Assembly (NCBI GenBank): GCA_007128895.1
Contig: SKWO01000010.1
Coordinates: forward strand, 1 to 54,603
DNA: 54,603 bases
Source: Gammaproteobacteria bacterium
Lineage (GTDB): Bacteria > Pseudomonadota > Gammaproteobacteria > SKWO01
Direction: 5' to 3'
In this document: positions 7,398 to 26,969 of the stretch, in pieces
Layout: each line of letters opens with the position of its first letter
Position numbering within the stretch: position 1 is the stretch's first letter
Program-made: the position numbers and the translations under genes
The notes under the pieces: generated by a model
Databases searched by the model: none
Seen by the model: the letters and a program-made list of their open reading frames with translations, nothing else
Told to the model about the DNA's origin: nothing

Positions 7398-8481
7398 GGC
7401 GGCCGCACTTCTATGGCGTGAAGGTCGCCTGCGTGCCGTCGGCGCGTGGACCGTGGACGGATTGGGCGCCCAGCCGCCGGGGCTGCCACCCGGTGCGGCG
7501 GTGGGGGCCGTGGACGCCGCTGCACTGGCGGCGCTGGATACGGCCGGGGCGCTGTGGCTGCTGCGGCTGAGTGAGCAGGCCGGCGGCGTCGCGATCGAGG
7601 GGCTGGCCGGGGCGCGTCAGGAGCTGCTCGAGCGGGTGCGCGAGAGCCGTGCACGCATGGCCCCGGCACGCCCGGTGCGGGACGAGGAGGGGATTCTGCC
7701 GACGACCGGCCGTCAGGTTGTTGCCCGGCTGGAACGGGCCCACGCCTTTCTCGCCTTCATCGGCGAGACGACCGTGGTCGCGGCCAGGCTGGTGCGCCGC
7801 CCCGGACGGATGCCGTGGCGTGAGGTCTTGGGGCTGATCCACAGCGCCGGGGTCGCTGCACTGCCGATCGTCGGCCTGCTCGCCTTTCTGATCGGCGTGG
7901 TCATCGCCTACCAGGGCGGCCAGCAGCTCAAGCTGTACGGTGCCAATATCTTCATCGTCGAACTGGTGGCACTGACCACGCTGCGCGAACTGGGGCCGCT
8001 GATTGCCGCGATCATCGTGGCCGGGCGCACCGGCTCGGCGTGGACCGCGCAAATCGGCACCATGCAGGTGCGCGAGGAGGTCGACGCGCTGCGTACGCTG
8101 GGTATCAGCCCGGTCGAGCGGTTGGTGCTGCCGCGCCTGCTGGCACTGCTGATCGCGCTCCCGCTGCTGACCGTCTTTGCCGACCTGCTCGGCGTCTTTG
8201 GCGGCATGTTGATCGCCTGGCTGGTGCTCGGCGTCAGCCTGTCCGACTTCATCGCCCGCTTTCCCGAGGTGGTCTACCCGAGCGCCTTTCTGGTCGGCGT
8301 CGGCAAGGCGCCCTTCTTCGCTGCGATCATCGCTCTGGTCGGTTGTTTCGAGGGCTTTCGCGTCAGCGGCGGTGCCGAGAGTGTCGGGCGTCATACCACG
8401 CTGAGCGTGGTGCAGGCGATCTTTCTGGTGATCGTCGCCGACGCCCTCTTTTCCGTGCTCTTCAGTTGGCTGAATCTGTGA
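7390..8481 (+). CDS. MCE transporter permease (MlaE family) with fused STAS domain
   Basis: This 363-residue inner-membrane permease belongs to an MCE-type phospholipid ABC transporter. Residues 1-105 form a STAS (MlaB-like) domain, including the hydrophobic LDTAGALWLLRL stretch. Residues 150-360 are an MlaE permease with about five membrane helices and the family motifs LRELGPLIAAIIVAGRTGSA and EEVDALRTLGISP. In E. coli the STAS partner MlaB is a separate protein; here it is fused, as in many other Proteobacteria. The ATG at 7390 overlaps the HAD gene. The TTG at 7372 in the ORF track is less likely. The stop overlaps the ATPase start (TGATG), indicating translational coupling. Confidence 0.9.
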   Translation: MAEAAALLWREGRLRAVGAWTVDGLGAQPPGLPPGAAVGAVDAAALAALDTAGALWLLRLSEQAGGVAIEGLAGARQELLERVRESRARMAPARPVRDEEGILPTTGRQVVARLERAHAFLAFIGETTVVAARLVRRPGRMPWREVLGLIHSAGVAALPIVGLLAFLIGVVIAYQGGQQLKLYGANIFIVELVALTTLRELGPLIAAIIVAGRTGSAWTAQIGTMQVREEVDALRTLGISPVERLVLPRLLALLIALPLLTVFADLLGVFGGMLIAWLVLGVSLSDFIARFPEVVYPSAFLVGVGKAPFFAAIIALVGCFEGFRVSGGAESVGRHTTLSVVQAIFLVIVADALFSVLFSWLNL

Positions 8482-9254
8482 TGGAGCGGGTCGTCGAGGT
8501 CGCCGGGCTGGTCAATCGCTTTGGTGACGAGGTGGTCCACGACGGCCTCGATCTGACCGTCGAGGCGGGGGAGGTGGTCGGTCTGGTCGGTGGCTCCGGC
8601 TCGGGCAAGACCACCTTGCTGCGCACCCTGTTGATGCTGCAGCCGCCTCAGGCCGGGCGGGTGGCGCTCTACGGTCAGGCGCTGACCGACCTCGACGCCG
8701 CCGGCGCCGACCGGCTGCGCCGCCGCTTCGGGGTGCTCTTTCAGCAGGGGGCTCTGTTCAGTTCGCTCACGGTGCGCGAGAATGTCGCCATGGTGCTGCA
8801 TGAACACAGCTCGTTGCCGGCTGCGCTGATCGATGAGGTCGCCGCGCTCAAGGTGGCCCTGGTCGGCCTGCCGCCGCAGGCGGCCGAGCGCTACCCGCGC
8901 GAGCTCTCCGGGGGCATGGTCAAGCGGGCGGCGTTGGCGCGTGCGCTGGCGCTCGATCCCGATCTGCTCTTTCTGGATGAGCCGACCGCCGGGCTCGACC
9001 CGCAGAGTGCGGCGGCCTTTGATACCTTGCTGCGCCAATTGCAGCGCGCGCTCGGCCTGACCGTGGTGATGGTGACCCACGATCTCGATTCGCTCTGGGC
9101 GGTGACTGATCGGGTCGCCTTTTTAGGGGAGCGGCGGGTGCTGGCCCAGGCCCCGATGGCCGAGTTGGTGCACCATGACCATCCGCTGATTCGAGACTAC
9201 TTCAGCGGCCCGCGTGGCCGCGCCGCCGGGGAGGCCGCATGCGCAGCGGTATGA
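8481..9254 (+). CDS. MCE transporter ATPase (MlaF-like)
   Basis: This 257-residue ABC ATPase powers the MCE lipid transporter. It has Walker A GGSGSGKTTL (about 36-45), Q-loop VLFQQGALFSSLTV, the signature LSGGMVKRAALARAL (the SGGM-KR variant typical of MlaF/Ttg2A) and Walker B LLFLDEPTAGLDP, followed by the switch His in VMVTHD. The ORF track extends to 8040 in a shadow reading of the permease. The true ATG at 8481 overlaps the permease stop. The last 16 bases overlap the MCE-protein gene, consistent with a single operon and fixed stoichiometry. Confidence 0.93.
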   Translation: MERVVEVAGLVNRFGDEVVHDGLDLTVEAGEVVGLVGGSGSGKTTLLRTLLMLQPPQAGRVALYGQALTDLDAAGADRLRRRFGVLFQQGALFSSLTVRENVAMVLHEHSSLPAALIDEVAALKVALVGLPPQAAERYPRELSGGMVKRAALARALALDPDLLFLDEPTAGLDPQSAAAFDTLLRQLQRALGLTVVMVTHDLDSLWAVTDRVAFLGERRVLAQAPMAELVHHDHPLIRDYFSGPRGRAAGEAACAAV

Positions 9255-22543: not shown

Positions 22544-24369
22544 TCGATCTCGATCAACGCTTCGTCCGGGGTGACGCTGTCGCCCTTGGCGACATGGATC
22601 GCCTTGATCGTGCCGGCCACCGGCGCCTGCACCTCGGTCTCCATCTTCATCGCCTCGGTGATCAGTACCGGCTGGCCGGCGCTGACGGCATCGCCCGGCT
22701 TGACCAGGATGTCGACCACGCTGCCCGGCATCGAGGCGCTGACGTGGCCGGGCTGGGTGGCGCGTGGGCGGCCGTTGCCGCTGTTGCCGGCGGCAGCGCG
22801 GCCCTCACCATCCGGGGCAAACTCGGCGATCGTCTCCAGCAGTACCTCCTCTGGCTCGCCGTCGACGGTCAGGTAGAAGGGGCGCTGCGCCTGGCTGCGG
22901 TGGCCGGCGCCGGTCAGGCGCACGTGGTAGCTCTCGCCGTGCAAGGTGATGGTGAACTCGGTTGGCGCGGCACGTCGCTCGGCCGACTCGGTCGGCAGCT
23001 CCAATGGCTCTGGAGTCAAGGTGCCGTCCTGGCGCGCCTGCAGGAACTTGCGACCGATCTCGGGGAACATGGCGTAGGTGAGGACGTCTTCTTCCGAGCG
23101 GGCCAACGCACCGATCTCGTCGCGCAGTCGTGCCATCTCCGGCGCCAGACGGTCGGCCGGCCGGCCTTCGATCGGCGGTTCGCCGCCCAGGGCGAGACGG
23201 CGCAGCCCCTCGTCGACCGGGCCAGGCGCGCGGCCGTAACGGCCCTGCAGGTAGAAGCGGGTCTCGTTGGTGATGGTCTTGTAGCGCTCGCCGGTGAGGA
23301 CGTTGAGTACCGCCTGGGTGCCGACGATCTGCGAGGTCGGGGTGACCAGGGGCGGGTAGCCAAGCTCCTTGCGCACGCGCGGGATCTCGGCGAGTACCTC
23401 GTCCATGCGGTCGAGCGCCCCTTGTTCACGCAGCTGGTTGGAGAGGTTGGAGATCATGCCGCCGGGTACCTGATTGACCTGAACCCGGGTGTCGAGGCCG
23501 GTGAACTCGCTCTCGAAGCGGGCGTACTTGCGCCGTACTTCGCGGAAGTAGAAGCCGATCTCCTGCAGCAGTTCGAGATCCAGGCCGCTGTCGTACGGGG
23601 TATCGCGCAAGGCGGCGACCAGGCTCTCGGTGGCGGCGTGGCTGGTGCCGCCGGAGAAGGCCGAGATCGCCGTGTCGATGCCGAGTGCGCCGTGCTCGAT
23701 CGCCTTGTACTGGCAGATGGCGGAGAGGCCGGCAGTGGCGTGCGAGTGGATGTGCAGCGGGATCGGCACCGCACCGGTGATCGCCGTGGTCAGCTCGGCG
23801 GCGACCTGAGGGGTGAGCAGGCCGGCCATGTCCTTGAGAGCCAGGCTGTCGCAGCCCATGGTATGCAGCTCACGCGCCTGCTGGACAAACTGTTCTACGG
23901 TGTGAACCGGGCTGGTGGTGTAGCAGATCGTCCCTTGGGCATGTTGCCCGGTGGCCTTGACCGCCTCGATCGGTACCTGCAGGTTGCGCAGGTCGTTCAT
24001 CGCGTCGAAGACGCGGAAGATACTGACGCCATTGGCGGCGGCCCGCTCGATGAAGGCGTGGACCACGTCGTCCGGGTAGTGGCGGTAGCCGAGCAGGTTC
24101 TGGCCGCGCAGCAGCATCTGGATCGGTGTGTTGGGCAGCGCCGCGTGCAGTGCGCGCAGCCGCTCCCACGGGTCTTCCTGCAGAAAGCGGACGCAGGCGT
24201 CGAAGGTGGCGCCGCCCCACGCCTCCAGCGACCAGAAGCCGACCCGGTCGAGGCGCTCGCAGATCGGCAGCATGTCCTCGGTACGCAGGCGGGTGGCGAT
24301 CAGCGACTGGTGGGCGTCGCGTAGAACGGTATCGGTGATGCGGACTTTTGGCATGACGTCAGTATCCAT
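22540..24369 (-). CDS. pycB: Carboxyltransferase/biotin-carrier subunit: pyruvate carboxylase subunit B / oxaloacetate decarboxylase alpha (OadA-like)
   Basis: This roughly 609-residue subunit carries an HMGL-like carboxyltransferase domain (ITDTVLRDAHQSLIATR, GGATFDACVRF), a conserved carboxylase domain in the middle, and a C-terminal biotinyl domain with TEAMKMETE, where the central Lys takes biotin. Such proteins serve as OadA in Na+-pumping decarboxylases or as the B subunit of two-subunit pyruvate carboxylase. The gene directly upstream is a biotin carboxylase, and no oadB or oadG is present, so pyruvate carboxylase (anaplerotic oxaloacetate formation) is favoured. Possible starts are GTG 24381, ATG 24369 and ATG 24354; none has a strong ribosome-binding site. 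I use 24369, which overlaps the biotin carboxylase gene by 11 bases. Confidence 0.88.
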   Translation of the reverse strand: MDTDVMPKVRITDTVLRDAHQSLIATRLRTEDMLPICERLDRVGFWSLEAWGGATFDACVRFLQEDPWERLRALHAALPNTPIQMLLRGQNLLGYRHYPDDVVHAFIERAAANGVSIFRVFDAMNDLRNLQVPIEAVKATGQHAQGTICYTTSPVHTVEQFVQQARELHTMGCDSLALKDMAGLLTPQVAAELTTAITGAVPIPLHIHSHATAGLSAICQYKAIEHGALGIDTAISAFSGGTSHAATESLVAALRDTPYDSGLDLELLQEIGFYFREVRRKYARFESEFTGLDTRVQVNQVPGGMISNLSNQLREQGALDRMDEVLAEIPRVRKELGYPPLVTPTSQIVGTQAVLNVLTGERYKTITNETRFYLQGRYGRAPGPVDEGLRRLALGGEPPIEGRPADRLAPEMARLRDEIGALARSEEDVLTYAMFPEIGRKFLQARQDGTLTPEPLELPTESAERRAAPTEFTITLHGESYHVRLTGAGHRSQAQRPFYLTVDGEPEEVLLETIAEFAPDGEGRAAAGNSGNGRPRATQPGHVSASMPGSVVDILVKPGDAVSAGQPVLITEAMKMETEVQAPVAGTIKAIHVAKGDSVTPDEALIEIE

Positions 24370-25774
24370 GGTGGGCGACAAGGGCGGCTGCGATGGCAGC
24401 GGCCAGTTCGTTGCGTGAGCGGCGCACCGAGTAGTCGGTCAGCTCCGGGTGGGCCTCGACGAAGCCGGTATTGAAATGGCCGGAGGCGAAGGTCGGGTCG
24501 TCGAGGATGGCTCGATAGTAGGGGACCGTGGTCTTGATCCCGTAGACGCCAAGATCGTCGAGCGCGCGCCGGGCACGGCGCAGCAGCGCCTCCCAGCTGG
24601 GCGCCCAGACGATCAGTTTGGCGCACATCGAGTCGTACCACGGCGGGATGGTGTAGCCGGTGTAGATCGCCGAGTCGATGCGGACACCGGGGCCGCCGGG
24701 GGCGAAGTAGCGGGTGATGCGGCCGTAGCTTGGCAGAAAGCCGTTCTTCGGGTCTTCTGCGTTGATGCGAAACTCCATGGCGAAGCCGCGGCAGGTCACC
24801 TCGGCCTGGGTGAAGCCCAGCGGAAGACCGGCGGCGATGCGCAGCTGCTCCTGAACGATGTCGATGCCGGTGACCGCCTCGGTCACCGGGTGTTCGACCT
24901 GCAGCCGGGTGTTCATCTCCATGAAGTAGAACTCGCCGCTGGCGTCGAGCAGGAACTCGACGGTGCCGGCGTTGGTGTAGCCGACCTCGCGTGCGGCCTG
25001 CACGGCCAGTTGACCGACCTTTTCTCGCTGCGCTTCACTCAGCTGGGGTGAGGGTGCGATCTCGATCAGCTTCTGGTGGCGGCGCTGGATCGAGCAGTCG
25101 CGCTCGAACAGGTGGATGGCGTTGCCGTGGCTGTCGGCGAGGACCTGTACCTCGATGTGGCGCGGGTCGACGATGCACTTTTCCAGAAAGAGCTCGGTGT
25201 TGCCGAACGCCTTGCCGGCTTCGGAGATGACGCGCGGGTAGTGGCTGCGCAGCTCGGCTTCACTGTCGCAGCGGCGGATGCCGCGACCGCCGCCGCCGGC
25301 ACTTGCCTTGAGCATCACCGGGTAGCCGATCTGCGCGGCGGCCGTGACGGCCTCGTCGAGCGAGGTCAATCCCTGGGTGCCGGGGGTGACCGGCACGCCG
25401 GCACGGATCATCAGCGCGCGCGCGGCGGTCTTGTCGCCCATGGTACGGATCACGTCGGCGCTGGGGCCGACGAACAGGATGCCGCGGCGGCGGCACGCCT
25501 CGGCCAGTTCCGGGTTCTCCGACAAGAATCCATAGCCGGGGTGAAGGGCGTCGCAGCCGGTGGCGGCCGCCAGATTGACCAGACGGTGGACGTTGAGATA
25601 GCCGGCGACCGTGTCCGGGCCGAGACAGTGGGCCTCGTCGGCCTTCTTGACGTGCAGCGCATGGCGATCCGCCTCGGCAAAGACGGCGACCGACGTAATG
25701 CCCATCTCGGCGCAAGCGCGCGCGATGCGGACGGCGATTTCGCCACGGTTGGCGATGAGCAGTTTGCGAATCAC
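24359..25774 (-). CDS. pycA: Biotin carboxylase subunit (pyruvate carboxylase subunit A / AccC-like)
   Basis: This 471-residue ATP-grasp enzyme carboxylates the biotin of the partner subunit. It has the N-terminal IANRGEIAVRIARACAE, the glycine-rich ATP loop KASAGGGGRGIR, the conserved ERDCSIQRRHQKLIE and MEMNTRLQVEHPVTEAVTG. It begins with GTG at 25774 and has a poor ribosome-binding site. The close pairing with a carboxyltransferase/BCCP gene, rather than accB, indicates pyruvate carboxylase instead of acetyl-CoA carboxylase. Automatic pipelines may still call it AccC because the families are very similar. Confidence 0.9.
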   Translation of the reverse strand: MIRKLLIANRGEIAVRIARACAEMGITSVAVFAEADRHALHVKKADEAHCLGPDTVAGYLNVHRLVNLAAATGCDALHPGYGFLSENPELAEACRRRGILFVGPSADVIRTMGDKTAARALMIRAGVPVTPGTQGLTSLDEAVTAAAQIGYPVMLKASAGGGGRGIRRCDSEAELRSHYPRVISEAGKAFGNTELFLEKCIVDPRHIEVQVLADSHGNAIHLFERDCSIQRRHQKLIEIAPSPQLSEAQREKVGQLAVQAAREVGYTNAGTVEFLLDASGEFYFMEMNTRLQVEHPVTEAVTGIDIVQEQLRIAAGLPLGFTQAEVTCRGFAMEFRINAEDPKNGFLPSYGRITRYFAPGGPGVRIDSAIYTGYTIPPWYDSMCAKLIVWAPSWEALLRRARRALDDLGVYGIKTTVPYYRAILDDPTFASGHFNTGFVEAHPELTDYSVRRSRNELAAAIAAALVAHHGY

Positions 25775-25811
25775 GAAGGGGTTTCCGGGCTCTGCAAGGG
25801 GTCTGTGGATA

Positions 25812-25828
25812 GTTAACGGAGGGTTAAC
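25812..25828. promoter_or_regulatory. Paired GTTAAC palindromes, possible operator
   Basis: Two GTTAAC hexamers at 25812-25817 and 25823-25828 are spaced exactly 11 bases apart, one helical turn. They lie between the biotin carboxylase start and the putative small RNA. Each hexamer is itself a palindrome, so the pair reads the same from either side. The binding factor is unknown. Confidence 0.35.
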
Positions 25829-25849
25829 GCGGAGCTGCTAGACTGACGC

Positions 25850-25939
25850 TTGAAATGCTGCCACTGGGTACCTGATGGGTCTGGTGGTTGCATTTCTATC
25901 CCCTCGTTTTGGCGGCTCGCATGAGCCGCCATTTTTTTT
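25850..25939 (+). ncRNA. Putative small RNA or terminated leader RNA
   Basis: A roughly 90-base stretch has the architecture of a bacterial small RNA. A long stem forms from GAAATGC (25852-25858) with GCATTTC (25890-25896), extended across a 2x2 internal loop by CCAC (25861-25864) with GTGG (25884-25887). A pyrimidine-rich single-stranded linker follows, then a strong terminator. A candidate -10, TAGACT, lies at 25839-25844, but the -35 is weak. No gene upstream runs in this direction, so the terminator must end an RNA starting inside this gap. It could instead be a leader controlling the 26040 gene. I do not recognise the family. Confidence 0.5.
25911..25939 (+). terminator. Rho-independent terminator
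   Basis: GGCGGCTC (25911-25918), tetraloop GCAT and GAGCCGCC (25923-25930) form a perfect 8-base stem, followed by A and eight T residues (25932-25939). It works only on the plus strand, because the minus strand lacks a T-run after the stem. It lies about 100 bases before the ATG of the propeller gene. Confidence 0.85.
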
Positions 25940-26039
25940 GCGGCTGGCGCCACCCTGCTTTTCATTGTAGGTCAGTCGGCAAGAAACCGAAACCGATCTT
26001 GGGCTAGAATTGATCTCTCGAATCAGGAGAGGGAGCGAC

Positions 26040-26969
26040 ATGGGGCTGCAACTGGTCGATCTCGTCTGTGTGGGTGATGAGGCCGCGCACAACGCCTTTA
26101 CCGATCTGGTCCACTTCCTGGGGCGCTACTGGCTGGTCTACCGTGAGGGCAGCGGTCACGTCTCCCCGGATGGGACGATTCGTGTCTGTGCCTCTGAAGA
26201 TGGCCGGCTCTGGTCAACCGTGGCGCGGATTGAAGAGGTGGGCGAGGATCTGCGCGATCCCAAGCTCTCGGTGACCCCGGATGGCCGGCTGATGCTGATT
26301 GCGGCCAGCGTCGTGCGTCCTTCCGGTGGGCCGATAGTGCTGCACAATCTGGTCTGGTTCTCTCGCGATGGCCGTGAGTGGGGCGAATCGACCGCGGTCG
26401 GTGAGCGCGACCTTTGGTTGTGGCGGGTGACCTGGCAGGGGGATCGGGCCTGGGGCATCGCTTACAGCACCGGCCATTATCGCCACCAGACGCGCTTTGT
26501 TCGGCTCTATACCAGTGTCGACGGCATCAGTTTTGCGCCGCTCGGACGGCAGATCTACCAGGGCGGCTATCCGAGCGAGCACGCCCTTCTCTTTGCCGGC
26601 GATGGCACGGCGTGGTGTCTGCTGCGCTGTGACGATGAGGCGAATACGGCGATGATCGGCCACGCGCGCGAGCCCTATGCGCAGTGGCAGTGGCGGCCGG
26701 TTGGGATGCGTCTGGGCGGTCCGCAGATGATCGCTGACGGCGCCGGGCAGGCACTGGTCGCGGCACGTCTGTATGAGGGGAAGACACGCACCGCGCTTTG
26801 CACGCTCGATCTGGCCTCGGCCACCCTGAGCGAGCAGCTGGTGTTGCCATCGGGGGGAGATACCAGCTATCCCGGTGTGGTCGCCGTCGATGGCGGTTGG
26901 CTGGTCAGCTACTACTCGGCGCACGAAGGGCCGTGCCGCGTCTATGTGGCGCGCGTGGCCCGAAACTGA
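26040..26969 (+). CDS. Sialidase-like Asp-box beta-propeller protein, unknown function
   Basis: This 309-residue protein has no signal peptide or membrane helix. At least three Asp-box-like motifs repeat: SEDGRLW (about 52-58), SRDGREW (108-114) and TSVDGISF (158-165). This indicates a BNR/sialidase-type beta-propeller. WLVYREG and YPSEHALLF resemble positions near the active site of exo-sialidases, but I cannot assign a catalytic set, and a cytoplasmic sialidase would be odd. The start ATG 26040 is supported by AGGAGAGGG about 8 bases upstream. It begins a tight run of four genes transcribed away from the carboxylase operon. The fold is likely; the function is unknown. Confidence 0.75.
   Translation: MGLQLVDLVCVGDEAAHNAFTDLVHFLGRYWLVYREGSGHVSPDGTIRVCASEDGRLWSTVARIEEVGEDLRDPKLSVTPDGRLMLIAASVVRPSGGPIVLHNLVWFSRDGREWGESTAVGERDLWLWRVTWQGDRAWGIAYSTGHYRHQTRFVRLYTSVDGISFAPLGRQIYQGGYPSEHALLFAGDGTAWCLLRCDDEANTAMIGHAREPYAQWQWRPVGMRLGGPQMIADGAGQALVAARLYEGKTRTALCTLDLASATLSEQLVLPSGGDTSYPGVVAVDGGWLVSYYSAHEGPCRVYVARVARN

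Follow-up and report, generated by a model that had tools for sequence, protein, structure and literature searches.

Genomic setting

The window, that is the whole stretch of 54,603 nucleotides that was analysed, contains an intergenic region at 25775-26039 (Table 1). On its left lies pycA, which encodes the biotin carboxylase subunit of a two-subunit pyruvate carboxylase and runs away from the region from position 25774; on its right, a gene for a 309-residue protein heads a cluster on the plus strand. Searches of Pfam and NCBIfam with the 309-residue protein gave no match. The next open reading frame of the cluster is likewise without a Pfam match and is followed by that of a thioredoxin-domain protein. 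The original prediction placed between the divergent genes a 90-base unit and stated that nothing upstream reads in its direction. The plus strand upstream is indeed clear, and the sequence of the unit on this strand, GAAATGCTGCCACTGGGTACCTGATGGGTCTGGTGGTTGCATTTC - TATCCCCTCGTTT - TGGCGGCTCGCATGAGCCGCCATTTTTTTT, is as described.

Table 1 Features of the intergenic region and its flanking genes, and the possible sibling RNA
Feature	Position	Strand	Remarks
Biotin carboxylase subunit, two-subunit pyruvate carboxylase (pycA)	24359-25774	-	divergent from the RNA unit
Direct repeat GTTAAC-N5-GTTAAC (GTTAACGGAGGGTTAAC)	25812-25828	+	11-bp period; candidate OmpR/PhoB-family response-regulator box
Extended -10-like element TGC-TAGACT (TGCTAGACT)	25836-25844	+	putative, read from the sequence
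5' hairpin	25852-25896	+	7 + 9 pairs and an inner helix of 2 pairs; first base is the predicted +1
ORF MGLVVAFLSPRFGG...	25875-25970	+	31 aa + stop; judged non-coding
Linker TATCCCCTCGTTT / UAUCCCCUCGUUU	25897-25909	+	13 bases, single-stranded in MFE and centroid structures
Intrinsic terminator	25910-25939	+	9-pair stem with GCAU loop, then U8; 3' end may bind Hfq
-10-like element TAGAAT	26005-26010	+	putative, read from the sequence; ~30 bases before the 26040 start
309-aa protein gene	26040-26969	+	heads the same-strand cluster
Possible sibling RNA	L116 ~8230-8293, contig C5, own genome	+	terminator-like site 8266-8286

Structure of the predicted RNA

The transcript of the unit probably comprises 88 nt (25852-25939). 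Its minimum free energy (MFE) and centroid structures agree in a single 5' hairpin, a linker and a terminator. The pairings GAAATGC/GCATTTC and CCAC/GTGG noted earlier are both formed, as the two halves of this one hairpin. It is a bulged structure of 16 pairs in which T25859 is unpaired opposite T25889 and the segments 25852-25864 and 25884-25896 are 85% complementary; folded alone, it has a free energy of -23.1 kcal/mol. The C/T-rich linker that had been noted is unpaired and is the sole long accessible segment of the RNA. The terminator is formed by the stem TGGCGGCTC/GAGCCGCCA with the loop GCAT, followed by the predicted eight Ts at 25932-25939, with nine pairs in the stem instead of eight.

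The MFE of the complete RNA is -42.9 kcal/mol, compared with a mean of -23.9 kcal/mol for shuffled sequences (z -6.2), and none of 200 shuffles was as stable. An equally stable fold was obtained with one of 3000 GC-matched 88-mers from the same genome. Among the 74 terminator-like sites of the genome, this hairpin is the strongest at the same upstream offset (z -5.5).

Promoter region

The pairing of the hairpin begins at G25852, 7-8 bases past the extended -10-like element, and from the position of this element we infer that transcription starts at about 25851-25852, with the first hairpin base. Upstream of the element there is no good match to a -35 hexamer, and a stricter scan for two-hexamer promoters found none for the unit. 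The GTTAAC repeat ends 10 bp before the -10. In its perfect form it occurs once in the 1.65-Mb genome, the nearest other copy having one mismatch. Direct-repeat sites with an 11-bp geometry have been described for ArcA/PhoB, regulators of the OmpR/PhoB family (PMC3798270). The repeat is a lead, a candidate box to which an activator of this family might bind. Four Trans_reg_C proteins are encoded in the metagenome-assembled genome (MAG), which is about 81% complete; one scores as PhoB, one as OmpR-like and one as TorR/ArcA-like, and an unassigned one is encoded beside the locus on contig C5 described below.

A sigma-54 promoter was also considered; the only candidate, a poor GG-N10-GC element (GG-TTAACGCGGA-GC) at about 25822-25835, was rejected by eye. 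Adjoining the GTTAAC repeat, TGTGGATAG at 25803-25811 is one base off a DnaA box (TGTGGATAA), probably by chance.

Leader and peptide alternatives

The original prediction offered two readings of the unit, an Hfq-type small RNA (sRNA) or a leader that ends transcription before the 26040 cluster. According to the second, the unit would be an attenuator or an unclassified riboswitch whose terminator represents the off state and whose hairpin is switched to an antiterminator by a ligand or a ribosome. Its position upstream of the 26040 gene in the same direction fits such a role, as does the ability of 25857-25863 (GCTGCCA) to pair with 25910-25916 (TGGCGGC). This 7-pair alternative is the only possible antiterminator, however, and in a nascent transcript that reaches the terminator loop the best forced antiterminator has -19.2 kcal/mol, 7.8 worse than the -27.0 kcal/mol of the hairpin. 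In addition, the -10-like TAGAAT is probably part of a separate promoter of the 26040 gene, and the cluster is not recognisable as a biosynthetic operon. An Rfam search of the window yielded sub-threshold matches only, with no family, and hence no riboswitch or leader, at its gathering threshold, in agreement with the earlier failure to match the unit to a known riboswitch. Disfavoured by the energy of the antiterminator and by the promoter candidate, the terminating leader is unlikely.

Open frames are present, and a small protein or leader peptide might be translated either from the 31-residue frame beginning with MGLVVAFLSPRFGG, as had been suggested, or from a frame starting with TTG at 25850. 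Against their translation, the codon log-likelihoods are -8.1 and -13.4, corresponding to roughly -0.26 and -0.57 for each codon, compared with +0.32 for the genes of the genome, and neither start is preceded by a Shine-Dalgarno sequence. The 31-residue frame extends across the stem and the T tract of the terminator, and the TTG frame would be leaderless. A peptide gene is thus very improbable, and the suggestion of a leader peptide was abandoned.

Homologue searches

When 94 genomes were searched by BLASTN with the intergenic region, only chance pieces of 20-29 bases came up, and a plasmid search with the same region returned none. The regions upstream of 31 gammaproteobacterial pycA orthologues contain no comparable unit, so that synteny yields no homologues. 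A covariance model built from the structure of the single sequence found no homologue in two sets of genomes from the class (274 and 369), one from the phylum (399) and one made up of relatives of a close pycA match (113); the sets are overlapping draws, with no order-level relative of this genome among them. Scores of 34.8, 34.2 and 33.1 bits, the highest obtained outside the genome, appear to be background. In the phylum sample, unrelated terminators of operons reach 33-34 bits, near the 34.8 bits of locus L098. The matches in the class, the phylum and the L006 relatives were mostly operon terminators at background score, except for two sets of sRNA candidates, in family f53 and in genome G178. 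Because the searched genomes yielded no homologue, neither conservation nor covariation supports the reading as an sRNA. The candidate is probably restricted to its own lineage, as far as these genomes go.

In genome family f53, a conserved sRNA candidate occurs at L098 (1495-1690, minus strand) and L261-L266, in genomes G052, G296, G300, G306, G297, G299 and G302. It has an invariant block, ACCCCGTCCTTCCCTCCCCACATT, with an invariant pairing partner, GGAAGGA, and a terminator; in most members a sigma-54-like TGGCACG-N4-TGC lies about 60-80 bases upstream. The candidate is absent from Rfam, and L098 scores 33 bits against mmgR, the cut-off of which is 41. Hairpin, CU-rich linker (CCTTCCCTCCCCACATT) and terminator are arranged as in the 25852-25939 RNA, for which L098 provided the best outside match of the model, whereas the long invariant block and the upstream sigma-54-like promoter are missing from the window. 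The likeness is not separable from background, and a model that included the C5 locus and L098 recovered only the f53 family. The G178 candidates are two tandem siblings (L101, 1501-1589 and 1696-1771; genome G178/G278, contig C121), each with a hairpin GTGACG...CGTCAT, the linker TTCTTCTTTACCCTC and a terminator, preceded by a sigma-54-like GG-N10-GC element.

The best Rfam match of the intergenic region, with 22.1 bits and the anti-Shine-Dalgarno linker aligned, was to suhB/mmgR (alpha-r8; RF00519), an alphaproteobacterial sRNA family. In Sinorhizobium this RNA is Hfq-dependent and regulated by the nitrogen and carbon status of the cell (PMC7143759). Both RNAs have a length of about 77-88 nt, a 5' stem, an unpaired C/U-rich anti-Shine-Dalgarno stretch and a Rho-independent terminator. 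The unpaired motif is a trait of suhB/mmgR that is present in TATCCCCTCGTTT, but it is generic. The 25852-25939 RNA differs in its longer 16-pair hairpin, the sequence of its linker and its gammaproteobacterial host, and no sigma-54 or NtrC promoter was seen. Its score is far from the gathering score of 41. Sub-threshold matches to the family occur in 64 of 185 gammaproteobacterial genomes, none of which reaches the cut-off, and in its own genome the RNA ranks second of seven such matches, behind one of 23.1 bits. Membership is refuted at the family's own threshold and the weak match is background; homology to suhB/mmgR is scarcely credible.

A second locus of similar design

A matching linker was found at one other of the 74 terminator-like sites, L116:8266-8286. 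This C5 locus, TTTTATCCCCCTCGCTTGCGGCCTCGCCATGAGGCCGCTTTTTTT, has the linker and the terminator loop in common with the 25852-25939 RNA: TTTTATCCCCCTCGCTT aligns with TTTCTATCCCCTCGTTT, and then GCGGCCTCGCCATGAGGCCGC with TGGCGGCTCGCATGAGCCGCCA. A linker alignment that reaches this score arose in 2.2% of the shuffled sets; from random 22-mers, 0.009 are expected. The hairpins differ, and the C5 locus obtains only 20.1 bits with the model of the whole RNA. The two loci may be paralogous or convergent. The C5 locus is situated between two minus-strand genes, on the opposite strand to both; that at 8292-8726 was judged by eye to resemble a gene for an RsbW-type anti-sigma kinase, and that at 7463-8155 encodes an OmpR-type response regulator.

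The occurrence of the design twice in the genome bears on a further alternative, namely that the unit is a decayed or fortuitous structure, with hairpin and terminator persisting untranscribed after the gene or element to which they belonged was lost. The lack of homologues in the genomes searched and a promoter that is weak by consensus are what such a remnant would have. Besides the C5 locus, the intact 9-pair stem with T8 and the intact 16-pair hairpin argue against decay, as do the exactly fitting distance of the -10 and the coherence of all parts; a remnant seems rather unlikely.

The linker and candidate targets

The linker is complementary to GA-rich Shine-Dalgarno sequences and is a candidate seed. 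A hybrid histidine kinase gene (L118:10647-13001, minus strand) has a Shine-Dalgarno region to which the linker is perfectly complementary over 11 nt (ACGAGGGGATA). An equal match is obtained with 5% of shuffled linkers and with 13% of genomic 13-mers rich in pyrimidines. The C5 linker has a perfect 11-base complement in the Shine-Dalgarno region of a gene whose product was judged by eye to resemble a GGDEF protein, a match equalled by 13% of shuffled C5 linkers. When targets were ranked by energy, the real seed, with a top value of -26.4, did not stand above shuffled seeds, the top values of which went down to -27.3. The complementarity of the linker to targets is only weakly above chance.

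It is conceivable, although quite improbable, that the two loci encode sibling sRNAs with the common seed UAUCCCC(C)UCG which jointly repress the hybrid histidine kinase, the GGDEF protein and a chemotaxis receptor. With one sRNA beside the gene of an OmpR-type response regulator and the other under an OmpR-type box, they would form a new lineage-specific two-component/sRNA circuit.

Proposed function and significance

Of the two readings originally offered, the Hfq-type sRNA is retained. It is the best supported reading because of the orphan intergenic site, the placement of the promoter, the unpaired C/U-rich linker, the U8 terminator, the Hfq protein encoded in the genome (at L212, 91% identical to E. 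coli Hfq over 68 residues) and the C5 locus. With moderate confidence, we consider 25852-25939 to be a stand-alone gene of a trans-acting, Hfq-dependent sRNA. The promoter, which has an extended -10 but lacks a -35, would be weak, and a response regulator occupying the GTTAAC repeat would probably help RNA polymerase to start there, at about 25851-25852. Transcription would end at the intrinsic terminator, giving the 88-nt RNA. The hairpin, formed from the first nucleotide on, would shield the 5' end, and Hfq would bind the U8 tail and the terminator stem. The exposed linker, UAUCCCCUCGUUU, could then repress the translation of some mRNAs by pairing with their GA-rich ribosome-binding sites. 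By analogy, occlusion of the ribosome site appears to be the likeliest mode of action, and the targets are putative. The second RNA of like design on contig C5 may have overlapping targets.

OmrA/B, MicF and MgrR are Hfq-dependent sRNAs controlled by OmpR-family regulators of enterobacteria. Like the candidate, they have a stand-alone intergenic gene, a terminator with a U-rich tail and a single-stranded seed, and they too have a response-regulator box near the -35 position, where the 25852-25939 RNA has a candidate box; they are not related to it in sequence.

If it is transcribed, the RNA is one more sRNA missing from the catalogues, and it comes from a gammaproteobacterial lineage that has been sampled poorly. 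The general picture remains unchanged; the regulator would be of an ordinary kind and restricted to its lineage. Possible control through a response-regulator box, together with the sibling RNA, would make up a modest, testable circuit. The case would also illustrate that sRNA regulators may be confined to a single lineage and overlooked by family libraries.
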